DNA of 49,392 nt. It comes from a virus. The notes beneath the pieces were generated by a model, which was not told the DNA's origin, did not search any database, and saw only the letters and a program-made list of their open reading frames with translations. Numbering within the stretch: position 1 is the stretch's first letter; every line of letters begins with the position of its first letter. The stretch lies in the IMG/VR virus record IMGVR_UViG_3300025128_000067, positions 1-49,392 of that record; one strand, given 5' to 3'. Positions 2,481-43,759 of the stretch are shown here, in pieces. The position numbers and the translations under genes are program-made.

Positions 2481-2882
2481 ATGATCCGTTCACGGCTCGA
2501 AGACTTCGAATATATATCGCGGCTCAAGTTCGCGTCCACGCTCCGCTATATGACGTCTCATGAGGCAGAAGATATCCTCACGCCTGGGTACTTCAATAAC
2601 GCCGGTCAATTCGTTGAGGCGGCTGATGAGATTGATGTGGTCTGCCGACACGACGACGGCTCCTGGACAAAGGGGCGCCTTGAGGTCGTATCCAAGACGG
2701 CAACCGACGTCACTGTCAGACTGATCGACAAATGGCGACACGGTGTGGCACCGGCGGCGCGTAACATGAAGGTTCACTACGTTCCCGGATCCAAGTCCTG
2801 GATGGTTAAGGCGGATAACGAGGTTATCGCCAAGAACCTGACTAAGGCGGATGCGGAATCGCTGGTCAGTGAGGCCGCCTGA
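2481..2882 (+). CDS. Hypothetical protein between capsid and tail tubular genes
   Basis: 133 residues, ATG 2481 behind AAGGATTTATA. The stop overlaps the start of tail tubular protein A (TGATG). The sequence is mixed alpha/beta with no membrane segment; the middle (DEIDVVCRHDDGSWTKGRLEVVSK) looks like beta strands of a small barrel. I do not recognise the family. Its place, sandwiched between capsid and connector genes, suggests a structural or assembly function. Confidence 0.75.
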   Translation: MIRSRLEDFEYISRLKFASTLRYMTSHEAEDILTPGYFNNAGQFVEAADEIDVVCRHDDGSWTKGRLEVVSKTATDVTVRLIDKWRHGVAPAARNMKVHYVPGSKSWMVKADNEVIAKNLTKADAESLVSEAA

Positions 2883-3502
2883 TGGCAGCGTCTGAAGTCA
2901 GTATTTGCAACGCCGCTCTGCAACTCATCAAGAACACCAAATCGATCACGGCCCTGACGCAGGGCACCAAGGAAGCCAATGCGTGTGAAGTCGTGTTCGA
3001 TGAGCTTCGCGACACGATGTTGGAGTGTCACAACTGGAACTTCGCGACTAAGCGGGTTCAATTAGCGCGCCTGGCTGACGCACCGGCGTTCGAGTGGGAC
3101 TATCAATACCAACTGCCAGCGGACTATCTCCGCGTCGTCCGACTGTCGGAGAACTCCGACGCGCGCGACAACTGCCCGTACCGGATCGAAAACGGCAAGA
3201 TCTTGACCGATGCCAGTGAGATCTACTTACGCTATGTCGCGCGGGTCGAGGATCCGAACTTGATGCCGGCGACGTTTCGGACGGCGATGTCAAAACTTCT
3301 CGCTTCGCGCCTGGCTGTCGCGCTCGCTCAATCCGCGGCGTTGTCGAAAGAGATGTACACGCAATACACCGGCGAGGATCTACCGACAGCCAAGTCGGCC
3401 GACAGCATCCAGGACTATCCGGAGAACCTCCCTGAAAGCCCCTGGGTCACGACCCGGTACGGCGGATATGTCTATTACGAGCCCGGGGATCCGCCCAGTT
3501 GA
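2882..3502 (+). CDS. Tail tubular protein A (T7 gp11-like head-tail adaptor)
   Basis: 206 residues. The start AASEVSICNAALQLIKN, the HNWNFATKRVQLARL segment and YQLPADYLRVVRL are the hallmarks of the gp11-type adaptor: an N-terminal helical part, then a hydrophobic W-N-F-A patch, then LPADYLRV. These proteins form a ring below the portal and hold the nozzle. ATG 2882 overlaps the preceding stop, and its own stop overlaps the TTG start of the nozzle gene by four bases. Length is close to the family norm of about 200. Confidence 0.88.
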   Translation: MAASEVSICNAALQLIKNTKSITALTQGTKEANACEVVFDELRDTMLECHNWNFATKRVQLARLADAPAFEWDYQYQLPADYLRVVRLSENSDARDNCPYRIENGKILTDASEIYLRYVARVEDPNLMPATFRTAMSKLLASRLAVALAQSAALSKEMYTQYTGEDLPTAKSADSIQDYPENLPESPWVTTRYGGYVYYEPGDPPS

Positions 3503-6861: not shown

Positions 6862-7335
6862 ATGGCAGGAGTATCCACTGCACTGTCGGCGGCGGCAACT
6901 ACAGCCGCACCATTTATGGCCGCCGGCTCGTTCGCCATGTCGGCCGTTGGCGCCATTAACCAAGGCAAGATGGCCAATCAGCAAGCGAAGATGCAAGCCG
7001 AGATGTACGCGCGCCAGGCCGAACGCGAGCGCCAGATCGGCGAGCTCAACGCCGCTCGGAAACGCACATCGAACAAACGCATCGAGGGCACGCAGCGCGC
7101 TATCCTGGGTGCAGGCGGCGGCGATATGTCGGAAGGTTCGGCCTTACTTGCCCAGGAAGAGCTCGCCGGTGAGGGCGAGTTGAACGCGCGTCTGATCGAA
7201 AATAATGCCGCGGCAGAGGTCAGTTCTCTCCAGGCTCAACAGGTCCTGGAGCGCGCACGTGGGAAGAACGCACAGAAAGCCGGATATATCCGGGCAGGGA
7301 GCGCGCTGTTGAAGGGCGCCGCGAAGTTCGGCTGA
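6862..7335 (+). CDS. Internal virion protein, T7 gp14-like
   Basis: 157 residues, start ATG 6862 two bases after the previous stop. The N-terminus is an Ala/Gly-rich hydrophobic segment (residues about 5-35), then a long helical stretch rich in A, Q, E and R (NQQAKMQAEMYARQAERERQ). This is the profile of gp14-type proteins, which are ejected first and form a pore in the outer membrane. The stop overlaps the next ATG (TGATGG). Identification is from order and composition. Confidence 0.8.
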   Translation: MAGVSTALSAAATTAAPFMAAGSFAMSAVGAINQGKMANQQAKMQAEMYARQAERERQIGELNAARKRTSNKRIEGTQRAILGAGGGDMSEGSALLAQEELAGEGELNARLIENNAAAEVSSLQAQQVLERARGKNAQKAGYIRAGSALLKGAAKFG

Positions 7336-9296
7336 TGGCGGGCTCAAAGATCCCCACAGCGGCGGACCTGCCGCAGGTCGCCCCCCAGAGCCTACGCGGG
7401 GTGCGTGTCGGAGATATCTCCGGCGGCATGAATGAGGCCGTTCAAGAAGGTGGTCAGGCCGGCGGCGACTTGTTTCTCGGTATCCGCGACAAGGCCGAGG
7501 CGACCGAAGCCCAGGACCTGATCAACCAACTCCGCGACAAGCAACGGTTGTTGATGGATGGTGACGGATCCGAACAGAACCCCGGATATAGCAACCTGAC
7601 CGGAAAGACTGCCGTCGATGAGCGCAATAACTACGAGGTAAAATATCAGACTGACTACGACGACCTGTTTAATAAGGCTTCGAGCAGTCGGGTACAAGCG
7701 CAGATCATCAAACAGTTCGGCGCGCAGCGGAATACGTTCCTGACGAACGTATCGCGTCACCAGGGCGGTCAACGGATTAAGTATGAGGACCAGGTCCATA
7801 CCACGGCCTCGGATAATCTGACGGAGCTCGCGATCAGCGAGGCAACCTTCGACGAGGCAACGAAGGCCTGGGGCAATAAGAAGACGATCGCCGAGCAGCA
7901 CGCGGCAAACATTCAGCACTACAGAAAACGTACCGGTGACGCAAAAGTCGCGAAGGATATGGCCGATGAAGCTCGGTCGAAGACCCATGTCGAAGTTATC
8001 GACGATCTCTTGACCCGTGCTGGCGGCGGCGTGTCGGCCGAAAAATATTTCAACGCGCACGTCGGTGAAATCGACCAGAAGGTCAAGAACGAGCTTCGCA
8101 CCCGCATTGAAAACGGATCACGTCTAGACACGGCCCAGACATTTGCCGATGACACCATTAAAAAATTTGTGACTGCGAACCCGACAAAGTCGGAACGCGA
8201 GCTCATGAGCGACGTAAAATGGCAGCGGGACACGCACGCCGAGATAGGCAGAAAGTTTAGCGGCGAGACTGAAAAAGAAGTTCGCGCCGAATTCGACCGA
8301 CGCATTGCGCGGTTTACAAAACAAGAGAATAGCCTCGACGCCGAAGCTACCTATAAGGCAACCGAGTTTCTGGCAACCAACCGTGATAAAAGCCTGTTGG
8401 ATTTTCTGACGACCGCTGGAAATAAAGCAGAAGCCAAACGGATCATGTCTGACCCACGTTTGTTTGGGGCATTGGTGACCCTGTCAAGGAATATAGGGCG
8501 CGCACAGACAGCGGAAGAGTTTGCCTCTTCCAATAATAAACAGATCAAAGAAACGCACGAAAAGATGACCGGTGAAGAACTGCGCCAGATACCCGACGCA
8601 GCGTTCAACACCCTCAAGGAAGGACTAACCGAGACAGTCTGGAATAAATTGAACACGACGCGGAATACGGCGAAGCGCAAGTTTGAAAGCAAACAGAACC
8701 CCAACACCAGAGACGTCGATAAGGAAGCTGCGACCATTATGAAAGAGGTCGCGGCGCAAATACCCACGAGGTTTGATTTTAGTACGGTGAAGAAAGCCGG
8801 GGTAAAGAAACATCTACGCGTAAACGCGGCGGTCCTACGTCAGCGGGTTGAGGAATGGCTCGACCGGACCATCGAGGCCAGTAAAGGCCCTGACGGTAAA
8901 AAAGCGCCGACCTTTCCTGAAGATGACGAGATCAGACGCGAGGTCATGCGGCTGACGGCGAAGATCACCGCCGACCCTGTGAACACCGGTGAGATGTTTT
9001 TTCCGAAAACAGGGGAGGAATCGATTTCAGGGATGGTTATGCGGTTGGGTCCGTTTAAGGACAAAGCAGGTCGAAGGGTTACCAAGATGTCGCCGGCACA
9101 ATTGGCTGTCGCGCGCGTTCCATTCGCCAACATCCCTGAAGCTATGCTCGAGAGGATCAGGAATAACATCCGCCAGTCGCGGGACCCGTTTACCAAAACT
9201 CGGGTTGGCGACGAAGGGTTCATCGAGAATGTAGCCGGGGCCTTCGTCACAAAAAACGAACAGCGTTTGAAAAGACTTCTAGGCGTGACTGATTGA
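7335..9296 (+). CDS. Internal virion protein, T7 gp15-like
   Basis: 653 residues starting at ATG 7335, overlapping the gp14-like stop. The protein is strongly helical, charged and soluble, with many short coiled-coil-prone stretches and no membrane segment, the usual profile of gp15-type ejected proteins that build the periplasmic channel together with gp16. It lies directly before the giant gp16-position gene, overlapping it by one base (TGATG). No enzymatic motif is visible. Confidence 0.8.
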   Translation: MAGSKIPTAADLPQVAPQSLRGVRVGDISGGMNEAVQEGGQAGGDLFLGIRDKAEATEAQDLINQLRDKQRLLMDGDGSEQNPGYSNLTGKTAVDERNNYEVKYQTDYDDLFNKASSSRVQAQIIKQFGAQRNTFLTNVSRHQGGQRIKYEDQVHTTASDNLTELAISEATFDEATKAWGNKKTIAEQHAANIQHYRKRTGDAKVAKDMADEARSKTHVEVIDDLLTRAGGGVSAEKYFNAHVGEIDQKVKNELRTRIENGSRLDTAQTFADDTIKKFVTANPTKSERELMSDVKWQRDTHAEIGRKFSGETEKEVRAEFDRRIARFTKQENSLDAEATYKATEFLATNRDKSLLDFLTTAGNKAEAKRIMSDPRLFGALVTLSRNIGRAQTAEEFASSNNKQIKETHEKMTGEELRQIPDAAFNTLKEGLTETVWNKLNTTRNTAKRKFESKQNPNTRDVDKEAATIMKEVAAQIPTRFDFSTVKKAGVKKHLRVNAAVLRQRVEEWLDRTIEASKGPDGKKAPTFPEDDEIRREVMRLTAKITADPVNTGEMFFPKTGEESISGMVMRLGPFKDKAGRRVTKMSPAQLAVARVPFANIPEAMLERIRNNIRQSRDPFTKTRVGDEGFIENVAGAFVTKNEQRLKRLLGVTD

Positions 9297-12200
9297 TGGA
9301 TTTGATCGAGCAACTGCAACGCGAGCAGCAAAACCAAGACACCCCGGATCTGATCGAGGCGCTACAGCCCGAAGTGGGTCCGGCGGTCGACACCTCGCTC
9401 GGTGTCGTTCCTGATCAACGTGCCAAGGATCTCAACACATCTCGAAAGTCAGGTTTCAATGTTGAGGACCTGGAAGCCAACCGAGATGTCGTCGACCAGG
9501 AATATGAGCGCCAAGACCTCATTGACGAGCTTGAGCGAGCTCCTAAAAGCTCTCTATATTTTACGCAGAACCCGGAAGTCCTTCCCGCCGCCAAAGACGA
9601 CATCAACACGCTAACCAAGATCGAGGAACGCCTTAGTTTCTTTGGCGCTGCCGAACGCGGTATCGACCTTCTACAACAGAACTATTATGCAGCCGCCGAA
9701 GCGACCGGTGAGATGTTCGGGGCAAAAGATCTCATTGAGTTCGGACGTGAAGGGCGGATCTCAAACGAAGCGCAGATCAGCGCGCAACCGTCGCGTATGA
9801 AGGTCGAGGATATCAATAACCTCGATTCCGGTCTCCAGTGGCTAAAGGAGACGTTCGGCGAGCAAGGTGTAATGATGGCGCCGAGCATGGTCGGCGGCCT
9901 GGCTGGGGCAAAAACCGGCCTCGCACTAACCGCAGCGATCCCCGTACCTGGCGCGCGCATCGCCGGCGCATCGATCGGTGGTTTTCTCGGCGCGTTCATA
10001 CCAAACATCTTCCAAAGCGTCGGCGAGGTCCAGTCGGCCATCAAACAGAAAGATCCGGACGTCGTCAGGCCTGATGTAGCGTTTGGCGCCGGCAGTCTTG
10101 TCTCGCTCCTCGATAGCGCCGTCCCCGGCAAGGTTGGAACAAAGATCATTAAAGCATTCGGCATCGATCCGAAGGATGCCGCGGCTGACGCTGTTATTGA
10201 TCAACTCGGTAAGTCATTGACGCGTCGTATTGGCAGCGCCGTCAAGGGCGGCGGAAAGAGTTCCGGCATCGAGGGTGTCACCGAGGGGATCCAAGAGGCC
10301 CTCACCGAGCTCGCGGCGACTTATGCCGCAGGCCAAGACGTGAACGTCGAAGAACTTACGAGCGCCATACTCAATGGTTTTGCCGGCGGCTTGGTTATGG
10401 GTGGCGCCATTGGTAGTTCATCGACGGCCGTTAGCGACGCCTATAAGACCAAGCGCGCACGTGAATATCGCGACAACATGAACACGATCCTCGACCACAC
10501 TCGCGACAGCCTGTTGCACCAGCGGTCGCCAGAAGTCTTCCAGGAATTCTTTGAGGCTCTCGCCGGTGCGGACCTGACCGAGATCAACGTCGCCGCGCAG
10601 CCGATCGTCGCGTACCTCCAAGGTCAAAACGTCGATCCGGTCGAAACTCTCGAGGCGCTTGGCGTCGATATGAAGCAAGCGAACCGGGCATTTGAACAGG
10701 GCGGTGATATCACCATACCGGCCGCACGGTTCTTCGACGCCGTGAGTGACGGACCGCTGTTCGAGCTCCGCGACGGCTTCCTAATGAACGTCCGTGAGAA
10801 AGACGACGCACCGACCCTGGTTGAGGGTGAGGCTGATACGGCAGCTACCGAGGCACGCCTGGTTGCACAAGTCGACCAGGTCCGCCAAGACCTCGAGGGT
10901 ACGAAAGAGCTCGACCAGGTCGAGCAGGACGCCGAGCTCCTCCGCACGACCGTGACCGAGGAGATCGCGAAGACCGGACGATATACCCGAGCCGGCGCGC
11001 AGCGGATCGCTGCCCTCTATGAGAACTTCTTTATCACGCAAGCAACCGATCCCGGTATGGACAAGCCGCTTACACTTCAAGAAGTGTTCCCCGAGCTCCG
11101 GATGCGTTCAGTCGCCTATGCCGATCGCGATACGCCGATGGTGGAAGCCCTCGAGCAGTCCGCAGCCGAAACCGCGGCGGCGCCGGCGCGTATGGAGTTC
11201 ATGGATGACCAGTTCGGGACAATAATCTCGGCGATCGGCAGGAACCAAAACGAAGCGCATGTCGCGCGGATCGACATCGATACATTCCTCGATCTGACGA
11301 CGACGCCTGAAACCCGTGAGACGGTTGAGACGGAAGACCCCGCAGTCTCAAACATCGAACCCTTCGATGAAGTGCTGGCCATGTTTGACCCGGCGGAAAC
11401 AGAACGGGTCGATGAAAACGCCATTCCGTTCATCGCCATTGATGAGTACGGAAAGGTTATCGGGCATGAAGGTCGACATCGGGCGGTGTTGCTCAAGCGC
11501 GGCGGCGCGACGACGATGCCGATCGCGGTTCAGTATCCCGCCGGCGTCACCGAATTTGGTGAGCTCTCGGGCGAGCCGATGCCGACACAACTGACCGGAC
11601 AGTTCGACGCAACCATCGTCCGTAATATGCCGGAGACGGTTCTTGCGTCACCAGACAATATCGACGAGATGCGCGCCCTGGTCGGTGAGGGCAGCGACAC
11701 GCCGGCTGCCGCCAGGCAGAACGTCTATCACGTTACGTTTACAGATAATGTCGAGGAGATCGCGGAAGGCGGGCTGAAACAGCTACAGCCTAGCAACTAC
11801 GTTCGCGCTGATGGCGAGAGATATAACGCTGACGGCGGGGTCTTCGCGTTTGAGAACGCGGAAGACGCTGTCCGTTGGGCGCTGCGGATGGACTTTGATT
11901 ACCCTGACAGATCAATATCTATCGTAGAGGTCGATCGCGGCGACGTCTTTGAGATCGATCCATCCGAAGACCCGTCTTTGCAAACCGGCGCGGGCGCAGC
12001 CTTGCGAAGCATGGCGAACATCCCGGCAGATCGTATCGGAAAAATAACAGAGATATCGTCTCTTGAACGAGCCGAGCAACTGGGCATTACCTTAGACGAG
12101 TGGCTGGCGCAGACGGCTCAAGATATAAGCACGCCGGCTGCCGTTATCACCGCATTTCAGCCGCCGATATTTAAACCGTATCCATTTAAGGGCCTCGCTA

Positions 12201-15200
12201 AATCTCTAGTGGGTGCGGATAATCCAGACTTAGTAAGAACCTTAGTAGATGAGGATCAAGCGTTTGATACGCTTGCGTATGCCGCCGAAACAGACAACAT
12301 CACTCCCGGACAGATACGATCAGCGGTAAAGCAGGTTTACGATGCTACTCAGTCTTGGCTAGGAGATTTTCCCGACACTATAACAGTGTATAGGTATGGA
12401 GAGTTGCGCGGAGATGATCCGGTATCTTTTACACTTAACCCGAATTTTACGGGAGCATCATTACCCTGGATGGACCGAACCGGCTCAGAAAGACTTCAGG
12501 CTTATACAGTAAATAAAAAAGACATTTTAGCGGCTCCAAATGCTGTTCTTCGTCCTGGCTTGGGAACGGATACAGAATATGAGGTTGTAATTCCTGGTTC
12601 CCGTGTCCGTAAAGCCAGTGACACGCCAACTGACAAGCCTCGCATCCTTTTCCAGGACGGGCTCCCTGTCGTTCCGCCTGGCGTCGAGGCGGACGTCAAC
12701 AAGCATGGCGTCGCACCATACCTAAGAGAGCGTGTCGAGCCGGCCGCACCGTTGCCGCCGCGACCCTTGTTTACCCAGGAGACTAATAACAAGAACGCAC
12801 TCGGTCAGATCGCCAACCTGGATCCGGTGCTGGCCAACCATCCCGACGCGCACACGTCGCCAGAGAATTGGCTACAGATGATGGCCGAAGCCCTGGCCAA
12901 TGATGATGTACCGGCAGCACCGAACCAGTTTATCAAAGCGATCGCCAACAAGGGCGCCGGCGCCATCGCGTCCCTGAAGCGGCTGACACCTGGTCAGATC
13001 GCCGCGGCCGATCATGGTTTTAAGAACGCCGCACGGTTTCGAAAGTCCTATATCAATGGTGACATCGGCATCGAGCATACGACGAAACTGTTTCTCTGGT
13101 CGTTCCTGTCTCGCGGCGTGTCACCGTATGCCCAAGAAAGCATGTTCCTCGATATCTATAAGGGCATCGACAAGTTCATCGCCCAGGCCGCCAAACAGGA
13201 GCTAGACCTCGATGCCTATCTGGAATGGTCGTCACAACAGGCACCATTGGGCAGCGGTCAACCCGGCGCCGGCACCAGCCACAACCTGAACGCGTTCGGT
13301 CGTGATTTCCTCAGAAAGATGTCCCTCGATGTTGGTGACGGCACGGGTCGTTCGCGGTTGCAATATTTGCACGATATGATGACAGATCCGAAGTCGACCG
13401 GGAAACAGATCCGGCGCGCCTTCGCGACGTTCGGCCAAGGCGTCGGCATCGATAATAAAGTTCTGTCATTCACGCTCCTGGTCGCCGGCTTCGATGACGT
13501 GATGGTGATCGACCGGGTGCAGTTGCGCCAGATGTGGAATGACGGCCGGTTCACCGGCTACAACCTCTGGGATGGGGTCAAGGTGCCGTCCGGTGCGGAT
13601 CCGACAAAGAAGATTACAAAGACAGGTTCGGCGCTCGAGGGTATCCTCGCGGGCGCGCGCGGACTTTTAATCTACGAAGCCATCGAGCGCGGTATCCAAC
13701 AGAACGTCAAAGATATCTACACGGCGCTCGGCCGTCCGAAAGACGGTTCCGTCGGTCGGTATCACTGGGAGACCTGGATTGCTGACAGCGCCCAGGAAGC
13801 CAGCCACGGTACGCTCGATGCGGTCATCGCCGACGCGGTCGACAACCAGGCCGACGCCATCCATAAGACAACGTCTATGCAAGGCGAATATGGGACCTAT
13901 GCCTACGGCGCCAGGTACGGCGTCGCATCCACTGGCATTCCTTATTTTAACTATACCGCACCTGGCGGCCTCACCTATGTGTTCCGTGTCGAACAGTTTG
14001 TCGAGTTCCTGGAAGCGATGAAGAACCCTGACGCCGGCGTCATCCCGAGGACGGTTGGCCAGCGTCAGAAGACGAACAAGAAAGGCGAGCCGCAGTTGTT
14101 GAAAAGCGGCGAACCTGCTATGTTAGACGTGCCGTTTTCGGTATCGAAACGATACAAAACGCGGCGCGGAAAACTGGTTCTCGATGAGAAGAACCAACCG
14201 ATTGTATTGGAGGAGCTCAATGCCCCGTGGTGGTCAAGGCCAGAGGTCAACGAAGAAAACATCTCCGCGGTCGCCATCGCATTCGCGGAAGGGATCGCCG
14301 GCGATAGCCCGGGAACTGTTCGAGGGCCTGACGGCGACGCCGATCTTTCCGATCGACCTCCAGCCGCTGTCGGCGCTACCGGTTTCGCGCAGCCCGGCGA
14401 AGGGCCAACGGGCGTCGAGTTCTACCAAACGGTCCCGGAAGGCCAAGCAGACCTAAGAGACCGCGGCGAAGGCAAAGTCCGTTTCTTCAACCCCCTCGTT
14501 AAAATTACCCAGGATCTGAACCTGCCGGCCTGGAAGAATGATGGCGTCGCCAAGGGCAGCGACATCTGGACGGCGATCCAATCGAAAGCCAAGGACGTTC
14601 CTGCGAGCCAGATCAAGGAGGTGCTCAAATGGTCCGGGCTCGAGGAGATGCTGATCCTCTACCCGCAAGAACTCGATGCTGAACTTGAAGCCAGTATGGT
14701 CGACAGTGTCTACGTAGAACGGAGCGAAGACGAAGATGGGTGGTTCGTCGTCGCAGGGGAGGAAACGCTCTACTGGTTTAAAACGGAAAGCGAAGCGGAA
14801 GCTCGAGCAGAGCGTATCCGCGAAGAAATGATGGCGCCGCCCGAAGAGCTCATGTTTAGCCGCGCCGATATCGTCAAGTTCCTCGAGACCGACGGGTTCC
14901 CGTTAATCTCTGAAGTCGTTTCGCGCAGCACGCGATATACCGGTGATCTCGATGTGGAGCCCATGTCGGATTTTCAGGCTCAACAAGATATATCCACCTA
15001 CACCGAAATTCGAAGATTTATGGATGAAGAGCTCTATAACGAGCCTATGGCACAATATCGTGAGGTAGTCGATAAAGAGGCGCAGGAACGGATAGAACGG
15101 TTTAACTTTGTCGAGGAAGCTGACGGGTTCTACGGCCATCCGCAAAGCATCTTCGAGTTCGTCCACAACATTGAAATCCACAGGTTGGACACAACTGATA

Positions 15201-18200
15201 TTGATCGGATGATGAGGCAGGAGCTCGAGACGGATCGCGATTCCCGTATTAAAAACGCGATCGAGAAAGCACAAGTCGCATTGGAATACAGCGATCAATT
15301 CAACGCCAAGGGTGCCGAACTCTACGGGCAGCGAGAAGGCGCGGACTCAAGTATTGTTCAAGGTCAGAGGAAGTATAAGGGCTTTAATTTCGCCAACAGT
15401 ATGGAGGAGGTCTTCGATACCTTCAGGGAAGTCTACGAAGAGATCGGTCCGCCGCCGACCAAAAAGACCCAGACCCTGGACCTTTTTGATGAGAGGTTCG
15501 CCGATGATTGGATGGATAATCGAGAAGGCGCACGCGACAAAGGGCTGGAGCGCGAAGTTCGCGAGTATATGAGACGCGGCGAAAAGATGCTCCTCGATCG
15601 CCTCGGCGTCGACCCGGCAATCCGGACCGGCAACAAGGTTAAGGCCGGAGAGAACTTGGCCGAGGCTTTCGTCACCGCTCTGATCGACGGCACCAAAAAT
15701 GATATCACCAAGGAAATGGGGTCTATTGAGGTCTGGACGGAACAGGTCACCGACGATCGAATGCCTCGACGTATTATTCGGGTCGAGGCGGCCGAACGTA
15801 TGCCCTCTCGTTTTGTTGGGTATCTGCCGGTCGACACCAACGGTAATATTCTCGACGCCGCCGACAGCTACAACGAAGCACTCGTTCGTCTGTCGACTAG
15901 CGAAACGTCAGGGGCGACGGAGTGGGATAATTTTGTCATTGATATGGGAGACGGCAGAAAACCCAAGTCCTACCGGGAGTTCAAGCTGATCTACCCAGAT
16001 CTTCCCGGGCGCTATAAACATGAGCAACATCGGTTCAAGGAAGACAACATCATCGCGTTTGGGCGGGTGACGACCCGCGACCTGCGCGGCAAAAATACGT
16101 TAATGCTTGACGAGGGTCAGTCCGATATCGACACGGCCCAGAAGAAGTTCGGTTCGGTTAACGAACGGGTCCGGGAGTATAAAGAGGTACAACGCCTCGC
16201 CGCCGAAGTGCGCGATAAAATCATTGAACCGCTCGACCGGCTGCGTTCGTTGAGAGGGGACGCAGAAGACGTACTGGATACGTCGGTTACCGATGGCCAG
16301 AAACAAGCCATGGCAGCCTATTCGGATATCGTCGATATCCTCAGTGTGTTTGAGTTTAGGGATGGGGCCTCTAGATCTATCCAAATGAAAGGAGGTGTAT
16401 CCGGCGTCCAACTGGAACAGCACCTCCGGGATATCGTCCGCACTATGTATCTCGATTTAGAAGTCGGGGATAAAGTCCAACGGTTAACCGGTATCGAACC
16501 GAATTATCTCAGGTCGGAGATGTCTATAGATCTCTCGGAGTTCACCATCAACGAAGTCAGGTTCCCCGACGATACTGATCGCAAAGACGTCACACTTCAG
16601 ATAATGCAAGAAAAACCGCGGAAAGTAATCCAGAAGAAGATCAAAAAATTCCTGAAGAGGGCGCTGACCTTTCAACATATCCTCGATAACGTCACGGATC
16701 CCGACGTTGTCGGTGCTGTTCAGGACCTGGCCGCGGCCATCGGCCCAATCACCGAAAAGGGCCCCTACCTCAAGACGAACAAAGATCTCGATAGCTGGAT
16801 AATGGAGATCCCCGACGCACCCTTGATGGACGATGCGTGGACGATGCTTTTGATGAAACGCATGTTGGTCGAGGCAGTCGAGAAAGGTCACGATGCCATC
16901 GCCTGGTCGAGTTCCGGCGCCGTGTCGGGGCAATGGAGCCCAGGTTCACAAAAGATGTACGCAAACCTCTACGATCAGAAGTATCCAAGCGCGACGAAAA
17001 AACTGACGGGTGCCGAGCCGAAGCTCTACGAAATCGACGACGATATCGATTTTGAAAACGATGCGACAGCCGAAGAAGAGATGTTGCCGGTCGAACCCGG
17101 CAGGAAGCTCCCGAGTTTTCAGGAGCTCAAGCCCGTCTTTGAGCAATGGCTGGACGAAGCCTATGAGGATTACGATCGAATTTATGGCGAAGGCGCCGTT
17201 GAAAGTCTGCGGTTTGACGTTATAGATAATCTTGACTTTGACTTATACGACCGCGGTGTCGAGGACAGTTTATTACAGAGCGGCACCATTTACGATGGGC
17301 TAAGGCAACAGGTGCTCCCGCCCCTCCGGAACCGTCTCGAAGAGATGTTCGGTGTTCTGAACACCAAGGTGATGATGGCAAAGTCCGTCACATCGGTGAT
17401 CCGACTGGCCGATGACCCGGCGTTTGCCGACGTAACAAGTGAAGGTGTACGGCCGGCTGATCTCACCAGCGTGCTCGAGGGCGCGGATAACAGGAGATCC
17501 ACTCAGGTCACTAATGATATGAAGTGGGCGTACGCGTATCTATTTACTGCCGCGCTGACGGACGCGGTTGAGAAAAGTGATAATACGAAGCTCGATAAGA
17601 TCATGGAAGCGACGCTTGGCGAACGACTGTTCCGTCTGACCAACGACGGTGAGAGCGATTTCAAGCCCGAGCTTCCCATGCTGAAGCGCCTCGAGAGACT
17701 GCTCAATGAGGCGGCCGGCACCACCGGTATCAACGTAGAACCAGGGTTGAGACTCCTGAAACCGGGCGTGCCAATCGGCCCGGATATTATAGATCCAGAC
17801 GCGCCGCACGCGCTGCCGCAAATTACCATGATCGACCTGACCTATAGGCTTCCCGGCCGCCTGGCGTTTAACGAGACGGGTTCAATTCAGGGGCCGAACT
17901 TTAGTTCGTACCGTGTTGAAGAAATGGTCGAGAGGCTCGGCGGGTTTATCGACGGGCTGATCAAAGACAAGAAACAAGCGATCAACACTAAGCAGGGGTA
18001 CTGGTTCCTGCCGATCGACGAAGAGCTCGCTGAAACGATCCGAGACAACGGTTTCCCGTTGATGCAGGATCCGATCATACCCCGTGGCCGCGCAGTGCTC
18101 GGCGAGCAAGAGATTAAGGTCGAGATGTTCGAGAACGCGGACCTTTCGACGATGCTGCATGAAACCGGACACGTCTTCGTCAATCTCATGGAACGTGTGG

Positions 18201-21200
18201 CGTTACGCGCCGGCGCATCTGAACGGCAGAAAGATATTTATTCCTCGATGTTGGACTATGTCGGTGCCGGCAGTGCAGCGGACCTGGATCCGCGCATCAG
18301 CGGTGACGCCGCGGAGGAGAAACAAGAGAAGCTGGCGCGTGCCTTCGAGGCGTACCTTAGAGAAGGAAAGGCGCCGAGCAATCGGTTGCGCCAGGCGTTT
18401 GCCGTCTTCAAGGAATGGTTAAAGCAGGTCTATCAGTCGCTGACTGGGCTCGACGTCGAATTGACCGACGAGGTGCGGAGCGTCTTCGATAAGATGCTGG
18501 CCACCGACGCCGAGATCGATCAGATGCACGCAACGAACGGCATGGATACGACCGTCTCGGCGCCCGAGCTCTTCGCGCTTCTGTCGGCCGAGGAACGTGT
18601 GGCGTGGAACGATCTTGATGAAGAGGCCAAAGAGAACGCACGCCGCACGGCGTTGAACGAAGAGCAGCAAGCCCTCCAACAAGAGAGCGAGGAACAGTTC
18701 CAACAACGGCTTGAAGTCAACAAACAGATCGTCGAACGTCAGATGTACGAAAACCGCCCGGAATACCGGGCGTTTCATTTTCTGGTCAACGGCGAGTTCT
18801 TCGTTGGCGAGACGCCGGCAAGCCTGGCCGACCGTCGCATTAGTAAGGCGATGCTCCTCGAGATGGGCTACACGCAGGAGGATCTTAACGCGCTGCCGAA
18901 AGGCCGACGGCGGATCTATACAGACGACGCCGCCACGGCTACGGATCCGAGCCTGATGGCGACCGCCATGCGCTTCGATAGCGTCGAAGAGATGATGACG
19001 GCGCTGAAAAATATGACGCCGCCAGGTACGGCCATCGATCGCGACGCTTCAATGATGACCAGATCCGAGCTCGGTGATCCTCTGAACGATGGCAGCATCG
19101 AACGCCTGACGGAAGAGGCGTTGTATAACGAGAAACGTGCTGGCGCCATCCAACTGGAGTTCGACGCCCTGGCACGTCAAACGGGACAGCAACGCGTCGC
19201 ACGTGACACGATCAAGGCCATCGTCGATCGGATCTTTGACGAGAGCCCGGTCAGCGAGATCCTGAAGCCTATGCGCTATCAGTCGGCGGCGGTCCGGGCC
19301 GCACGCGAGACCGAGCGCGCTATCGCCAAGAAAGATTTCGTCGAGGCGTTCCGGCAGAAGCGGCTGCACATGCTCAACCATGAACTGTTCCGTCGCGCCT
19401 TGCAGGGCCGCACGGACGTTGAACGTATCACGCGGCGGCTACGCAACTACCAGCGGACCCGCATGGACAGCCGCAGCATTGATAAGAACTACATCGGTCA
19501 GGTTAAGAACCTCCTCGAATTCTACGAGTTCTCCGGGGTCTCCGTCGACCGCCTCGAGGAACAGACCGCCGCGGACGTGATGGCGTTTATCGAAAAACAG
19601 CGCGCCGCCGGCGAAGCCGTGATCATGCCCGGCAACCTGGTAGACTTCATTGGTGAAGACGCCAACGGTACGCCGCAGTTCAGCTTCAAGGTCAAGTCAT
19701 GGAAACAGATGACCATGACCGAGCTCGAGGCACTTAGGGATATGGCCGATAACCTGGTCAAGATGGGGCGGCAAAAATCGGCCGAGACCAAAGAGAGAAA
19801 GGCACGTCGCGGCATCGAGCTTGCCGACAATATTCGAAGCAAGGCGCGACCACGTAAGAATAAGGAGTCAACGCTTGCCGTTCCGATCGTCAAAGATCAA
19901 CGCAAGAAGGCCATGAAAGGCTTCTTCCCGGCTTCGCACCGGAAGCTCGAGAGCATGATGTTCGAGCTCGACGGGTTCGAGAACCTCGGGCCCATGTGGT
20001 CCGCTGTCTTCGACAAAATAACCGAGGCACAGAACACCAAGACGGTCCTGGTCGAGATGCTGTCGAAAGAATATTCAGACATCTTCGACGTCTACACGCC
20101 CAAAGAACGCTACCATATCCGACGCGAGGCCTCGAAGGTTGCAATCGAGGGGCTGGGCGGCAAGGGCCTGACCCGCGAGCAGCGGATGGCGATTGCGCTC
20201 AATTGGGGCAATGAGAGCTCGCAAGAAGCCCTCCTCGAAAGCGGCGACTTCGTCAAGCAGTATGGTGAGATGTGGAACGAAGAGACGATCCTGGAAGTCC
20301 TCGCGACCCTCGATAAACGCGACGTCCAGGTCATCAACCGGATCTGGAAGATGGTCAATCAATTCTGGGAGGATGTGAACCTGCCGGACGGCCGAACGAT
20401 CCCTGGCATATCGTCACTCGAGCGCGAAAGCACCGGCGTTGTTCCAGAGCGCGTCGAGGCGATACCTTTCATCGTCGGCGACAAAGCGTTCACCGGCGGG
20501 TATTACCCGCTCAAGTATAACCCATACAGTGATCAACGCGCGGCGCGCGAGAGCGAAGAGGATCTGCAAAACCGACTGAAGTCAGGCGGGTTCTCCCGCG
20601 CGCAGACCTCACATGGGTTCACCATCGCGCGGATCGGATCCGGCGGCCGGCCGGTCCAGTTGGACCTGGGTGTCATGCTGCGACATATGGACGAAGTCAG
20701 TCAGGACATCGCGTTCCGCACGGCCATCAACGAAGCCGCGGAGATCCTCGGAAACACTGATATCCAGGAAGCGATCGTCGGCACCATGGGCGAAGCCTAT
20801 CTGTCCGCCATGCAGGAAGTTCTGGTCAAGACGGCCAACGGCAACTTGGCCTCGTCAGATAGTTGGGCAGATCTTGGTGTCCTGAAGACGGCCAGGTTAA
20901 ACACGACCGTGGCTTTAATGGGCCTCAACCTGCGTTCAATATTAACGCAGCCGTTCGGTCTCACGCAGTCGATTGCCAGGCTTGGCATCCGCCGAACAAT
21001 TCAGGGGGTCGGCGAGTTCTGGCATAACCCGGCGAGCATAGGACGTCGTATTGCAGAAATCGACGCCAAGTCGACGTTTATGCGGGAACGCGCCAAGATG
21101 CTCACCCGTGAAGTCGACGACGTCGTCAACAAGCTGGACAGCCCCGGCTTCAATGACGAGGTCCGCAAGCTCGGGTTCTCGGCGATGATCTTGATGGACG

Positions 21201-21979
21201 TTGTCGCCGTCGCTTACCCGACTTGGATCGGCGCCTACAACAAGGCCATGGACGGTGACGTCGAGGGCGTGCGCCTGGGCGACGAGACCGCGGCCATCAA
21301 ATACGCCGACATGACGGTCAGGACGACGCAAGGTTCCGGTGGAGCCTCGAACCTCTCGATGGTGCAACAGTCATCCGAGCTCTCGAAACTCATGACCATG
21401 TTCTATTCGTATTTCAACACGACGTACAATTTGCAGACCGAAGCCTACCGCAAGATGCGCGCGCAAGGCATCTCGATCGGGTCCGTCGCTGAGTTCCTCG
21501 GGCAGACCTTAATGTTGCAGTTAATACCTGCGGTCCTCGGCGCATTGCTTCTCGATGCGCTGCCGAGCGATGAAGACCTCGAGGATGACCCCGAGGGCAC
21601 CTGGGCCATGTGGACCTTGATGGCGCTTATCAAATACGGCATTGGCCAGGTCGTCGGCTACCGCGATGTCGGTAACTCGATCACGTCAGGGTTCAACTTC
21701 CAACTGACGCCGGTCGAGGGGACCATTCAGAAGGGTATTAAGAGTGTCCGAGATTTGAAGGACATTCCGGAGTGGGTCGAGGAAGGTGAGATACCGGACA
21801 CATTCGTCAAGAACGCGCTCACCGTTTTTGGTATGGCGGCGGGCATCCCAGGCTCGATCCAGATGGTCAGAATGTATGACTACTATAAGAAGCTGCAAGA
21901 AGGGACCTTGAAGACCGACCCCGAAAGCACGTTCGAGGAGATCTACGGCGCCTTGATCCGAGGCGATAAGGTCTTTTAA
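9296..21979 (+). CDS. Giant polyvalent internal virion protein (gp16 position; zincin, ParB-like and ART-like modules)
   Basis: 4227 residues, more than three times T7 gp16. ATG 9296 overlaps the previous stop; an in-frame TTG sits just before. Visible from N to C: Gly/Ala-rich hydrophobic stretches (about 190-246 and 356-377); a ParB/Srx-like box GHEGRHR (723-729); a possible ART-fold module with NVYHVTF and GGL (about 809-925); an ADP-ribosyltransferase-like module with R1033, S1044 and E1094-x-E1096; a helical polyvalent-type region (about 1155-1660); a degenerate domain with DEGQSD (about 2226-2572); a zinc metallopeptidase motif HETGH (2955-2959) with downstream RAFEAYL; long helical domains; and a C-terminal domain with a hydrophobic segment near 4072-4092, as in other large polyvalent proteins. 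Such proteins are co-ejected with DNA and are thought to modify or protect against host factors. No lysozyme or RNA polymerase motif was seen. Domain activities are inferred. Confidence 0.85.
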   Translation: MDLIEQLQREQQNQDTPDLIEALQPEVGPAVDTSLGVVPDQRAKDLNTSRKSGFNVEDLEANRDVVDQEYERQDLIDELERAPKSSLYFTQNPEVLPAAKDDINTLTKIEERLSFFGAAERGIDLLQQNYYAAAEATGEMFGAKDLIEFGREGRISNEAQISAQPSRMKVEDINNLDSGLQWLKETFGEQGVMMAPSMVGGLAGAKTGLALTAAIPVPGARIAGASIGGFLGAFIPNIFQSVGEVQSAIKQKDPDVVRPDVAFGAGSLVSLLDSAVPGKVGTKIIKAFGIDPKDAAADAVIDQLGKSLTRRIGSAVKGGGKSSGIEGVTEGIQEALTELAATYAAGQDVNVEELTSAILNGFAGGLVMGGAIGSSSTAVSDAYKTKRAREYRDNMNTILDHTRDSLLHQRSPEVFQEFFEALAGADLTEINVAAQPIVAYLQGQNVDPVETLEALGVDMKQANRAFEQGGDITIPAARFFDAVSDGPLFELRDGFLMNVREKDDAPTLVEGEADTAATEARLVAQVDQVRQDLEGTKELDQVEQDAELLRTTVTEEIAKTGRYTRAGAQRIAALYENFFITQATDPGMDKPLTLQEVFPELRMRSVAYADRDTPMVEALEQSAAETAAAPARMEFMDDQFGTIISAIGRNQNEAHVARIDIDTFLDLTTTPETRETVETEDPAVSNIEPFDEVLAMFDPAETERVDENAIPFIAIDEYGKVIGHEGRHRAVLLKRGGATTMPIAVQYPAGVTEFGELSGEPMPTQLTGQFDATIVRNMPETVLASPDNIDEMRALVGEGSDTPAAARQNVYHVTFTDNVEEIAEGGLKQLQPSNYVRADGERYNADGGVFAFENAEDAVRWALRMDFDYPDRSISIVEVDRGDVFEIDPSEDPSLQTGAGAALRSMANIPADRIGKITEISSLERAEQLGITLDEWLAQTAQDISTPAAVITAFQPPIFKPYPFKGLAKSLVGADNPDLVRTLVDEDQAFDTLAYAAETDNITPGQIRSAVKQVYDATQSWLGDFPDTITVYRYGELRGDDPVSFTLNPNFTGASLPWMDRTGSERLQAYTVNKKDILAAPNAVLRPGLGTDTEYEVVIPGSRVRKASDTPTDKPRILFQDGLPVVPPGVEADVNKHGVAPYLRERVEPAAPLPPRPLFTQETNNKNALGQIANLDPVLANHPDAHTSPENWLQMMAEALANDDVPAAPNQFIKAIANKGAGAIASLKRLTPGQIAAADHGFKNAARFRKSYINGDIGIEHTTKLFLWSFLSRGVSPYAQESMFLDIYKGIDKFIAQAAKQELDLDAYLEWSSQQAPLGSGQPGAGTSHNLNAFGRDFLRKMSLDVGDGTGRSRLQYLHDMMTDPKSTGKQIRRAFATFGQGVGIDNKVLSFTLLVAGFDDVMVIDRVQLRQMWNDGRFTGYNLWDGVKVPSGADPTKKITKTGSALEGILAGARGLLIYEAIERGIQQNVKDIYTALGRPKDGSVGRYHWETWIADSAQEASHGTLDAVIADAVDNQADAIHKTTSMQGEYGTYAYGARYGVASTGIPYFNYTAPGGLTYVFRVEQFVEFLEAMKNPDAGVIPRTVGQRQKTNKKGEPQLLKSGEPAMLDVPFSVSKRYKTRRGKLVLDEKNQPIVLEELNAPWWSRPEVNEENISAVAIAFAEGIAGDSPGTVRGPDGDADLSDRPPAAVGATGFAQPGEGPTGVEFYQTVPEGQADLRDRGEGKVRFFNPLVKITQDLNLPAWKNDGVAKGSDIWTAIQSKAKDVPASQIKEVLKWSGLEEMLILYPQELDAELEASMVDSVYVERSEDEDGWFVVAGEETLYWFKTESEAEARAERIREEMMAPPEELMFSRADIVKFLETDGFPLISEVVSRSTRYTGDLDVEPMSDFQAQQDISTYTEIRRFMDEELYNEPMAQYREVVDKEAQERIERFNFVEEADGFYGHPQSIFEFVHNIEIHRLDTTDIDRMMRQELETDRDSRIKNAIEKAQVALEYSDQFNAKGAELYGQREGADSSIVQGQRKYKGFNFANSMEEVFDTFREVYEEIGPPPTKKTQTLDLFDERFADDWMDNREGARDKGLEREVREYMRRGEKMLLDRLGVDPAIRTGNKVKAGENLAEAFVTALIDGTKNDITKEMGSIEVWTEQVTDDRMPRRIIRVEAAERMPSRFVGYLPVDTNGNILDAADSYNEALVRLSTSETSGATEWDNFVIDMGDGRKPKSYREFKLIYPDLPGRYKHEQHRFKEDNIIAFGRVTTRDLRGKNTLMLDEGQSDIDTAQKKFGSVNERVREYKEVQRLAAEVRDKIIEPLDRLRSLRGDAEDVLDTSVTDGQKQAMAAYSDIVDILSVFEFRDGASRSIQMKGGVSGVQLEQHLRDIVRTMYLDLEVGDKVQRLTGIEPNYLRSEMSIDLSEFTINEVRFPDDTDRKDVTLQIMQEKPRKVIQKKIKKFLKRALTFQHILDNVTDPDVVGAVQDLAAAIGPITEKGPYLKTNKDLDSWIMEIPDAPLMDDAWTMLLMKRMLVEAVEKGHDAIAWSSSGAVSGQWSPGSQKMYANLYDQKYPSATKKLTGAEPKLYEIDDDIDFENDATAEEEMLPVEPGRKLPSFQELKPVFEQWLDEAYEDYDRIYGEGAVESLRFDVIDNLDFDLYDRGVEDSLLQSGTIYDGLRQQVLPPLRNRLEEMFGVLNTKVMMAKSVTSVIRLADDPAFADVTSEGVRPADLTSVLEGADNRRSTQVTNDMKWAYAYLFTAALTDAVEKSDNTKLDKIMEATLGERLFRLTNDGESDFKPELPMLKRLERLLNEAAGTTGINVEPGLRLLKPGVPIGPDIIDPDAPHALPQITMIDLTYRLPGRLAFNETGSIQGPNFSSYRVEEMVERLGGFIDGLIKDKKQAINTKQGYWFLPIDEELAETIRDNGFPLMQDPIIPRGRAVLGEQEIKVEMFENADLSTMLHETGHVFVNLMERVALRAGASERQKDIYSSMLDYVGAGSAADLDPRISGDAAEEKQEKLARAFEAYLREGKAPSNRLRQAFAVFKEWLKQVYQSLTGLDVELTDEVRSVFDKMLATDAEIDQMHATNGMDTTVSAPELFALLSAEERVAWNDLDEEAKENARRTALNEEQQALQQESEEQFQQRLEVNKQIVERQMYENRPEYRAFHFLVNGEFFVGETPASLADRRISKAMLLEMGYTQEDLNALPKGRRRIYTDDAATATDPSLMATAMRFDSVEEMMTALKNMTPPGTAIDRDASMMTRSELGDPLNDGSIERLTEEALYNEKRAGAIQLEFDALARQTGQQRVARDTIKAIVDRIFDESPVSEILKPMRYQSAAVRAARETERAIAKKDFVEAFRQKRLHMLNHELFRRALQGRTDVERITRRLRNYQRTRMDSRSIDKNYIGQVKNLLEFYEFSGVSVDRLEEQTAADVMAFIEKQRAAGEAVIMPGNLVDFIGEDANGTPQFSFKVKSWKQMTMTELEALRDMADNLVKMGRQKSAETKERKARRGIELADNIRSKARPRKNKESTLAVPIVKDQRKKAMKGFFPASHRKLESMMFELDGFENLGPMWSAVFDKITEAQNTKTVLVEMLSKEYSDIFDVYTPKERYHIRREASKVAIEGLGGKGLTREQRMAIALNWGNESSQEALLESGDFVKQYGEMWNEETILEVLATLDKRDVQVINRIWKMVNQFWEDVNLPDGRTIPGISSLERESTGVVPERVEAIPFIVGDKAFTGGYYPLKYNPYSDQRAARESEEDLQNRLKSGGFSRAQTSHGFTIARIGSGGRPVQLDLGVMLRHMDEVSQDIAFRTAINEAAEILGNTDIQEAIVGTMGEAYLSAMQEVLVKTANGNLASSDSWADLGVLKTARLNTTVALMGLNLRSILTQPFGLTQSIARLGIRRTIQGVGEFWHNPASIGRRIAEIDAKSTFMRERAKMLTREVDDVVNKLDSPGFNDEVRKLGFSAMILMDVVAVAYPTWIGAYNKAMDGDVEGVRLGDETAAIKYADMTVRTTQGSGGASNLSMVQQSSELSKLMTMFYSYFNTTYNLQTEAYRKMRAQGISIGSVAEFLGQTLMLQLIPAVLGALLLDALPSDEDLEDDPEGTWAMWTLMALIKYGIGQVVGYRDVGNSITSGFNFQLTPVEGTIQKGIKSVRDLKDIPEWVEEGEIPDTFVKNALTVFGMAAGIPGSIQMVRMYDYYKKLQEGTLKTDPESTFEEIYGALIRGDKVF

Positions 21980-22046: not shown

Positions 22047-23795
22047 ATGACGGTCAGTTCTGAGACCAATAAAGTCACCTTTGCGGGTGACGGGGCCACG
22101 ACGTCGTATTCGACGTCGTTTTCTTTTGCGTCCAACGATGAAGTCACAGTGACGCATGTCAACGCCGCGAAGACCCGCACAGAGTGGACAGCCGGATCCC
22201 AGTATAACATTACGGGCGCAGGAACCGGAAACGCTGGAACTGTGACCGTCGTCACATCACCAAGTGATTATACGGTAGCTTCAGGTGAGACGTTGGTGAT
22301 CCAACTCAAACCGGACTTCACCCAGCCGACCGACTTACCCCGCGGCGGAACGATATCGCCGGCTGATACGTTGGAGCCGATGCACGACAGTCGCGTGCGC
22401 CAGATGCTTCGTCTCAAGGACGAATTAGACCGTTCAATGAAGGTCCCCATCGAGGAGACAAGCGGACCGGCATTACCCCTGGTAGCGGATCGCGCATCGA
22501 AGGTCCTGGCGTTCGATAGTTCCGGTGATGTTGAGATGGCGTCGGCGGTTGCTCTACCGACGTCTCTGACGGCACTCAATTACATTCGCGCCAACAGCGG
22601 CGCCACAGATTATGAGATGCGGACACCGACCGAAGTGCGGACCGACATCTCGGCGCAGCCGCTTGACGCAACCCTGACCGCACTCGCCGCCTATAACACA
22701 AACGGCGTCTTGACCCAGACGTCGGCTGACACGTTTACCGGCCGCACGATCACCGGTACGTCGAACGCCATCACCGTCGCCAACGGAAACGGCGTCTCGG
22801 GCAACCCGACATTGTCGCTCCCGACCGACGTCAATATGACGAACCTGACGTTGTCAGGTAATCTGACGGTCAACGGTACGACAATCACAAACGACGCAAC
22901 CAATACTGAGATCAAGGATCCGCTGATCGAGATCAACAGCGGCGCCGGATCCAACGCCAACGATCTCGGCATGATCATGGAGCGTGGATCCACCGGTGAT
23001 AATATATTCGTCGGTTGGGATGAGAGCGCCGATGAGTTCGTCGCCGCGACGACGACAGCGACCGGGACTTCGACAGGCAACCTGACGATCGCTGGATATG
23101 CCAACGCGCAGTTCGCCAACGTGTCGATGGCTCAGTTGACGGCAACGTCTGGCACCCTGGCCGGCATTACCTCGTTCGGCATGAGTGCCGGTGCAACGAT
23201 CACCGCCGGCGTCCTCGACGAGGACACAATGTCGTCGAACAGTGCCGTGGCGTTAGCCACGCAACAATCGATCAAAGCCTACGTTGACAGCAATGCCCCC
23301 GAGAACGGGGTCAAGTTTACGTTCGAGACGGCGACAGCCGACAGTGACCAGGGAGCCGGAAAGGTTTGGCTCAATCATGCGACGGCGTCATCGGCGACGG
23401 TGCTCTACGTCGATGATGTTGAAGCCGGCGGCGTAAGCGTCAATGCCTGGGTCGACACCTGGGACGACATCTCAAACGCGGTCGCCAAGGGTTATGTCTA
23501 TATAGCGTCATACGGTTCGACCAACGCGCTTCTGGTCTACAAGGTGACCGGCAGCGTGACCAGTGCGACGACATACTCGAAGGTCGCCGTGACACACGTG
23601 CTTACGGTTGGGACGATTTCGGACGGCGACAGCGTCGGTTTGACGTTCGTACCTTCGGGCGGGGATGGCGCGGGCAGTGGCGATCTTTTGGCTTCGAACA
23701 ATCTATCGGATGTCGCAAACGCGGCCACGTCACTCGCAAACCTTGGCGGCACAACTGAATCAAATGCGGTTGCTCTGGCGATCGCGCTCGGCTGA
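22047..23795 (+). CDS. Tail fibre protein with T7-type N-terminal attachment domain
   Basis: 582 residues. ATG 22047 follows AGAGGAATT. The first 150 residues follow the T7 gp17 attachment pattern: [24 protein letters not shown], a DEVTVTHV strand, an [11 protein letters not shown] strand and then a helix with [10 protein letters not shown]. The rest is low-complexity, Thr/Asn/Ala-rich beta structure typical of trimeric fibres. The C-terminal end has the [20 protein letters not shown] repeat often found in phage fibres. It would join to the tail and carry receptor specificity, probably together with the next two products. Confidence 0.85.
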
Positions 23796-27233: not shown

Positions 27234-27692
27234 GTGCTATCTTTGATATCTGGTGCGGTCGGCCTGGCGGGATCCGTCGTGCCATCCTTGGTCAAGCTTT
27301 GGACGCAGAAAAGCGACCAGGCCCATGAACTAAAAATGATTGAAGCCCAGGCGAAGGCCCAAGCTGCCGTCGGCGCGGCCAGGCTCGAGGAGACCCAGCT
27401 AACCGTCGAAGCCGATCAGATGAAGGCGATATACAGACACGACGCTGCTATGGCAAAGAAGGCGGCGCCCTGGACATCGACGCTGTCGGCCAGTGTGCGA
27501 CCGATGGTGACATACATCGTCACGTTTACCTGGGTCGGGATCGAGATCGCGGCGGCGATCGCCATCTACAATTCCGGCGCCAACGTCGTCGACGCAATCG
27601 ACGCGGCGTTTAGTGAAGAGTTGAGCAGTCTCCTGTCTCTGATCATCGCTTACTGGTTCGGGAATAGGTCGCTGGAAAAGATCTCTAAATGA
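27234..27692 (+). CDS. Holin, 3TM gene-transfer-agent type
   Basis: 152 residues from GTG 27234, one base after the nuclease-like gene. The start LSLISGAVGLAGSVVPSLVKLW, a long helix rich in A, Q, E and K, the ASVRPMVTYIV segment and a final hydrophobic helix before FGNRSLEK match what I know of the holin-of-3TMs family associated with gene-transfer-agent release in alphaproteobacteria. It would form holes in the inner membrane to let the lysozyme out. Its stop overlaps the lysozyme ATG by four bases, a classic holin-endolysin pair. Confidence 0.85.
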   Translation: MLSLISGAVGLAGSVVPSLVKLWTQKSDQAHELKMIEAQAKAQAAVGAARLEETQLTVEADQMKAIYRHDAAMAKKAAPWTSTLSASVRPMVTYIVTFTWVGIEIAAAIAIYNSGANVVDAIDAAFSEELSSLLSLIIAYWFGNRSLEKISK

Positions 27693-43745: not shown

Positions 43746-43759
43746 ACTGGAGATTGGGA

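Follow-up and report, generated by a model that had tools for sequence, protein, structure and literature searches.

Gene organisation around the giant open reading frame

The window, by which we mean the whole stretch of 49,392 nucleotides that was analysed (IMG/VR virus record IMGVR_UViG_3300025128_000067), belongs to a BPP-1/Rauchvirus-like podovirus. Its gene order is that of BPP-1 from bbp17 to bbp9, and the main features of this order are also found in phages AF, HU1, CP2, and Carin1. The giant gene considered here closes the cluster of internal virion genes, as it does in BPP-1, AF, Carin1, and HU1. The surrounding genes are as follows:

1206-2096, major head protein
2882-6447, tail proteins
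6862..7335, plus strand, upstream internal virion protein (phrog_418, E 8.7e-25)
7335..9296, plus strand, upstream gene of 653 aa in the position of BPP-1 bbp11
9296..21979, plus strand, giant open reading frame of 4227 aa (ATG at 9296, stop at 21977-21979, no internal stop)
22047..23795, plus strand, downstream tail/fibre gene (phrog_1640, phrog_13893 and others)
27689-28150, Phage_lysozyme gene, separate from the giant frame
28450-29547, minus strand, tyrosine integrase gene (PF00589)

The presence of the integrase gene suggests that the phage is temperate.

The preliminary description of this DNA reported one uninterrupted protein of 4227 residues at the position of T7 gp16. The frame is indeed open over its entire length, and the two motifs named there lie where they had been placed (HETGH at residues 2955-2959 and GHEGRHR at residues 723-729). 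Its start codon overlaps the stop codon of the preceding gene (TTGATG context), which suggests translational coupling. Over residues 1-3927 the frame is also kept in another IMG/VR contig (L003), which differs at 26 nucleotides, 18 of these changes being synonymous. This agreement makes a chance frame or a misassembly very unlikely, and an assembly artefact was accordingly rejected as the source of the frame. The comparison with gp16 holds for the gene position but does not extend to the protein family, since the giant frame gave neither a sequence match to T7 gp16 nor an N-terminal transglycosylase, and no Pfam transglycosylase domain was detected in the upstream 653-aa gene either.

Some other genes of the window may be mentioned here. 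One of them encodes a protein with the dATP/dGTP diphosphohydrolase N-terminal domain (PF18909; 35294-35701, plus strand), and another, between the terminase and portal genes, a GNAT acetyltransferase (46391-46855, plus strand). A DUF6456 protein is encoded at 43754-44197 (plus strand); this family is presumably typical of alphaproteobacteria, which hints at the host group.

Fixed arms and a variable middle in the Bbp10 family

The giant protein is a Bbp10-type polyvalent protein, in which two conserved arms enclose a long middle part. The following features were located:

9296..11119, plus strand, N-arm common to Bbp10-type relatives (residues 1-608)
9392..9649, plus strand, LPD22 domain (residues 33-118; Pfam PF18834)
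11240..11695, plus strand, possible ParB-like module (residues ~649-800; GHEGRHR box at 11462-11482)
11717..12085, plus strand, doubtful KptA/ART-fold stretch (residues ~808-930)
12176..12607, plus strand, putative R-S-E ADP-ribosyltransferase-like cassette (residues 961-1104; R1033, S1044-F-T1046, E1094-Y-E1096)
12644..14080, plus strand, probable OGG2/HhH-GPD-like module (residues 1117-1595; Lys1388 at 13457-13459, Asp1406 at 13511-13513)
15533..17275, plus strand, module E (residues ~2080-2660; LF.EEVQSDW ... MKR ... G..IAW)
18071..21979, plus strand, C-arm, the shared backbone (residues 2926-4227; phrog_9880)
18083..18541, plus strand, zincin-like metallopeptidase domain (residues 2930-3082; HETGH at 18158-18172)

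The N-arm matches phrog_6958, a "virion structural protein", over residues 63-389 (E 6.6e-32). It includes LPD22 (E 7.9e-8; 32.9 bits, above the cut-off of 28.6), a domain present also in BPP-1, Jess A, AF, CP2, ctEw122, and DC33. The C-arm with its zincin matches phrog_9880 over residues 2914-4218 (E 1.3e-260). When the C-terminal half was searched by tblastn, 41 phage records were retrieved, most of them 23-31% identical over ~1270 aa (best E 2e-143), including BPP-1 Bbp10, Caulobacter phage Jess A, Carin1, and AF, and a scan with the C-arm alignment gave at least 500 viral stretches and 196 stretches in bacterial and archaeal genomes. One hydrophobic segment lies in the N-arm (residues 215-242) and two in the C-arm (residues 3958-3981 and 4061-4092). 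Of 91 relatives, 82 have hydrophobic 21-mers in the C-arm and 51 in the N-arm, but only three have them in the cargo.

The contrast between arms and middle is clearest when the protein is cut into slices of 150 residues: as many as 42 relatives are matched by slices within 1-600 and as many as 170 by those from ~2850 onward, whereas slices from 600-2850 find between zero and four. In the 103 genes with a recognisable zincin, the two arms are separated by a median of 326 aa, against 2317 aa in the window. We therefore speak of this 2317-residue middle, which by sequence has almost nothing common to the family, as a cargo bay. Complete relatives have a median length of 2249 aa (n = 141), and the window protein is the longest of them, followed by L047 (4200 aa), L055 (4075 aa), and Nsp-JY18 (4012 aa), a ranking that holds within these 141 best-scoring matches and is no census.

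In the 85 cargo regions of relatives that were scanned, the domains found were ART-PolyVal (15), MuF_C (10), LPD3 (10), and the PBECR nucleases PBECR5 (8) and PBECR3 (7), along with GNAT, GGDEF, RelA_SpoT, RadC, and ddrB-ParB. It follows that the same slot is filled in different phages by different, mostly conflict-related domains. The Pfam scan detected none of the relatives' cargo domains (ART-PolyVal, MuF_C, LPD3, PBECR, GNAT, etc.) in the cargo of the window, and none of its modules reaches a Pfam cut-off. Structure prediction, which had been proposed as a check of the domains, gave a divided answer: in the AlphaFold models the zincin region is confidently folded, but the cargo is modelled poorly (mean pLDDT 43.5 for residues 610-1740, making a fold search with this model uninformative). 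The alignments behind these models were shallower than possible. Foldseek returned no match at E <= 0.001 for either model, and double-stranded-RNA-binding domains among the weak matches of model 2 were not accepted as evidence. A linker of LFQ type between modules was considered as a cleavage site; the enrichment of [LFIM][FY]Q in the cargo is about twofold, but we dropped the idea since the pattern is enriched in both arms too, probably in part owing to a conserved N-arm motif.

Two observations concern individual relatives. Pseudomonas phage AF (L012, residue 807) and Xanthomonas phage CP2 (L015, residue 926) have an extra HExxH in the cargo besides the backbone zincin. Limnohabitans phage DC33 (PQ492659.1) is assigned to Inoviridae in its record, yet has a podovirus-type giant ejection gene, so that its taxonomy is probably erroneous.

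The zincin domain

Residues H2955, E2956, and H2959 are invariant in alignments of 12 and of 32 members, so the HExxH here is no chance motif. Also invariant are E3011 and E3018, which are candidates for the third ligand. Residues 2930-3082 are mostly modelled with pLDDT >90; HETGH lies in one helix and the two glutamates in the next (helices 1051-1071 and 1105-1124 in the model numbering), which is the HExxH-plus-glutamate arrangement of zincins. The domain fits what Iyer et al. (PMC5512222) describe as MPTase, and residues 700-1000 of Bbp10 have already served as a seed for the CLCA_X family of zincins (PMC3650047).

The zincin had been listed in the preliminary description as one effector-like module among several. 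The domain itself is well supported, but its rank changes: it lies within the C-arm and is nearly universal in relatives, hence it is not cargo but part of the conserved backbone of the known Bbp10 family, and as such it is most likely an enzyme of chain processing. We suppose that it probably cuts the chain as a putative autoprotease. Precedents differ (PMC5512222): P1 DdrB undergoes processing ahead of packaging, but N4 vRNAP enters the particle uncut; in view of the latter, cleavage by the zincin of the window is not assured.

Cargo modules of the giant protein

The R-S-E cassette (residues 961-1104) is a probable ADP-ribosyltransferase. Its residues R1033, S1044, T1046, E1094, and E1096 are invariant in four sequences (window, L004, L182, and L183) and lie in or adjoin three predicted strands (pLDDT about 50-75). 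The same pattern occurs in T4 Alt, whereas the polyvalent ARTs described by Iyer et al. (PMC5512222) are of H-Y-D type. Thus, the early reading of an ADP-ribosyltransferase is supported with a correction, the pattern being R-S-E and the family other than ART-PolyVal (PF18760), which has no profile match in the window. The cassette gave no Pfam, PHROGs, or credible PDB profile match to a known ART, and we do not file it as a proven member. An alignment of L190 to residues 1016-1104 was spurious on inspection.

The cassette has 59-82% amino acid identity to unrelated phages. At the nucleotide level it is 84% identical to L182 and L004 over ~435 bp, and the limits of this similarity are those of the module; the phages concerned have a different protein backbone. 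At 0.46, its GC content is the lowest in the gene, whose mean is 0.565 (for GC3, 0.36 and 0.67, respectively). A recent in-frame transfer is the best reading of these two properties, which makes the cassette a new and clear case of apparently recent exchange between unrelated phage backbones. In L183 the cassette lies within a 2427-aa protein with no Bbp10 C-arm.

The same domain occurs in other settings. In L004 (6968-8407) and also in L005-L008, a stand-alone protein of 479 aa begins with the R-S-E ART and continues with a ParB-like SEGNHR box; its gene lies between those for terminase and portal in an unrelated type of phage. The L182 protein (2-2971) has two ARTs, first the R-S-E one and then one of ART-PolyVal type (PF18760).

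The adjacent module (residues 1117-1595) had been overlooked earlier, together with the layout of fixed arms and variable middle. It recurs with ~48-57% identity in two groups of proteins: L024, L185, and L186 have the Bbp10 C-arm (for L024 and L185, ~29% identical to that of the window), whereas no C-arm was detected in L187-L190. When a six-sequence profile was run against 177,635 PDB sequences up to E 10, only 3fhf (0.011) and 3knt (0.037) were retrieved. Both are N-glycosylase/DNA lyases, which we take to be OGG2 (8-oxoguanine DNA glycosylase/AP lyase). Their segment GIGYK...IIDR aligns with GIDNK...VIDR of the window, and both catalytic residues coincide. K1388 and D1406 are invariant and 18 apart, the spacing of the Lys and Asp in the HhH-GPD core of OGG2; the catalytic Lys and Asp of EndoIII are likewise 18 apart. 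The core alone aligns with OGG2, and in contrast to the latter, the module of the window is embedded in a giant phage protein.

A different explanation is that the module is not glycosylase-like and that these matches are a local chance resemblance around one helix-turn-helix. It agrees with the silence of PF00730 and NF002305 in the window, where the cut-off of the HhH-GPD family is not reached, with the poor model, and with the low HHalign probability, which results from the shallow alignment of six similar sequences. We consider this a real possibility, somewhat short of an even chance, as it has to account for the fact that the only PDB profile matches are two OGG2 entries aligned at both catalytic residues, and that OGG2 and EndoIII-like alignments pick the same place in the module with HHalign. 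The score of 28.8 obtained there was reached in none of 150 column shuffles (mean 15.4, maximum 24.7), and lower values were given by the reversed alignment (17.3) and by three unrelated alignments (10-16). An HhH-GPD/OGG2-like fold is the reading that we moderately favour for residues 1117-1595; a predicted glycosylase activity is less certain than the fold. A phmmer match of the module to Awp14 (E 0.003) was absent with the profile and was judged to be due to chance. No cellular homologue was found in 385 genomes of one class and six others, a search that, lacking a positive control, shows little. The words "glycosylase" and "helix-hairpin-helix" are absent from Iyer et al. (2017; PMC5512222), and the one paper retrieved by a literature search joining "polyvalent proteins" with "DNA glycosylase" was a jumbo-phage review, which mentions T4 endonuclease V separately.

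Some relatives have further stretches in this region. Between the glycosylase-like module and the zincin, L024 (1-7878) has a P-loop stretch (VHIVLGPPASGKSS...) resembling a zeta-toxin kinase. In the cargo slot of the DC33 giant protein (L019, ~1056-1090), IGPKIGNGFF...TMDRWLIRTWGR looks like a second helix-hairpin-helix/Lys...Asp pattern of a different kind, and a similar stretch is found in ctEw122.

The remaining modules are less distinct. The preliminary description called the GHEGRHR box ParB-like. There is no profile match in the window to ddrB-like ParB (PF18763) or ParB_N (PF02195), but residues 649-745 are 27% identical to residues 1237-1331 of L055 (E 3e-4), a segment whose only Pfam match is ParB_N at E 0.005, below the cut-off; this weakly suggests that residues ~649-800 are ParB-like. 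The KptA-like stretch at residues ~808-930 is doubtful, with no homologue found and PTS_2-RNA as its sole match, below threshold (E 0.17).

Module E is recurrent and was recognised in 13 relatives by the pattern NI.AH.R...R...GK..LF.EEVQSDW...PF...W..L.MKR.L..A...GYD.IAWTTG. The copy in the window is degenerate (LDEGQSDI against LEEVQSDW in relatives), and its core segments have a pLDDT of 85-95. Our best guess is that it represents a putative effector.

Taken as a whole, the early view of a polyvalent, multi-module protein was right: zincin, R-S-E ART-like, OGG2-like, and ParB-like modules can be distinguished with differing confidence.

Comparison with known systems

The nearest known proteins are Bbp10 of Bordetella phage BPP-1 (2052 aa) and its counterparts in Caulobacter phage Jess A, Pseudomonas phages AF and HU1, Cobetia phage Carin1, and Xanthomonas phage CP2. 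They share with the window protein the gene position, the LPD22 N-terminus (where scanned), and the zincin with the C-arm of ~1270 aa, the core identity being 23-31%. They differ in having about half to two thirds of its length and other cargo (PBECR1, ART-PolyVal, LPD23, and others). Nostoc phage Nsp-JY18 (XAI95354) and the IMG/VR loci L047 and L055 have the same C-arm, a similar giant size, and module E in all three, and L055 additionally shares the ParB-like segment; the R-S-E cassette and the OGG2-like module were not found in them.

With the phage-type polyvalent proteins (Iyer et al. 2017, PMC5512222) the window protein shares many domains per chain with disparate predicted activities, the MPTase, the ART and ParB themes, and the late-gene context. 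The N4 virion RNA polymerase, an ejected protein of ~3500 aa with a HExxH C1 domain (PMC12633501), is similar as an ejected giant (presumed for the window) with an N-terminal membrane-interacting part and a HExxH domain toward the C-terminus; it differs in its payload, an RNA polymerase, and no sequence homology with the window was seen. Phage P1 DdrB (PMC5512222) resembles the window set by combining a ParB-like domain and a C-terminal zincin in one packaged, processed protein, but it belongs to another phage type, and the window has no ddrB-ParB Pfam match.

Proposed function and alternative explanations

Sequence comparison directly reveals the layout, the family, the conservation of motifs, and the exchange of cassettes between phages. 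On this basis we consider it likely that the giant gene encodes a Bbp10-type polyvalent ejection protein with delivery arms, a chain-cutting zincin, and in-frame swappable cargo. The packaging, ejection, cleavage, and enzymatic activities that we infer would proceed as follows. The protein would be packaged with other internal virion proteins, as suggested by the gene position and by the related N-terminal region annotated as a particle protein in phage TL (gp48). It would then be ejected with the DNA, and its hydrophobic N- and C-arms may contact or cross the host envelope; this step is suggested by the arms and by the N4 precedent (PMC12633501). Within the head or after entry, the zincin would cut the chain and free the payload, which would act ahead of phage gene expression: host proteins would be ADP-ribosylated, DNA nicked or bound, and bases that are damaged or modified excised. 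The cargo bay would accept in-frame swapped cassettes, in this case the ParB-like module, the R-S-E ART, the OGG2/HhH-GPD-like module, and module E.

It may be supposed instead that the protein is mainly structural, an ejection conduit whose middle is fast-evolving filler or scaffold with enzyme-like domains that are no longer active. The silence of Pfam on the window cargo, the degenerate module E, and the low-confidence predictions over much of the cargo are in line with this. Nevertheless, filler would hardly keep its motif residues exactly, as the ART R-S-E and the glycosylase-like Lys/Asp spacing are kept, nor is it suggested by the predominance of synonymous differences from the near-identical contig or by the known effector domains that relatives carry intact at this place; we regard this explanation as unlikely. 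Still less probable, in our opinion, is a protein made late in the infected cell that remains unpackaged and acts on the host from within (e.g., in lysis timing or superinfection control). Such a role would agree with the names "lysis protein" or "lysin" in some records (PMC9239159), and we found no published virion proteomics locating proteins of the Bbp10-type family in particles; the mass spectrometry reported for BPP-1 concerns the two major capsid proteins. However, the gene sits among head, tail, and internal virion genes, its N-terminal region corresponds to the particle protein of phage TL and to phrog_6958, and it has no lysin domain, while a separate Phage_lysozyme gene is present. 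A packaged ejection protein remains our preferred interpretation.

The records MK942064.1, PP438410.1, and NC_005357.1 give family members the names "lysis protein", "lysin", or "crystallin beta/gamma motif-containing protein". No domain supporting a lysin or crystallin annotation was found in the members scanned, and the Bbp10-type gene is probably misnamed by these widespread GenBank labels.

Significance

The polyvalent concept (Iyer et al. 2017), the Bbp10 family, and its zincin are already known, so the novelty suggested in the preliminary description is confined to the cargo: the set of modules appears to be new, and the probable glycosylase module appears to be a likely new type of payload. 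We tentatively propose, as an idea that is less probable than the ejection role itself, that the phage ejects a polyprotein-borne OGG2-like glycosylase/AP lyase, and that the Bbp10 backbone is a general chassis whose slot is filled by in-frame exchange with unrelated phages. If this is true, oxidised or modified bases in the incoming phage, host, or rival DNA would be processed before any phage gene is expressed, and with the probable glycosylase the known ejected activities would be extended to base-excision chemistry.

More generally, the Bbp10 family may represent a natural delivery chassis with constant arms, a processing protease, and a payload slot accepting from almost nothing up to >2300 residues. 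The delivery of enzymes by podoviruses before gene expression and the exchange of payloads between unrelated phages would then become testable.
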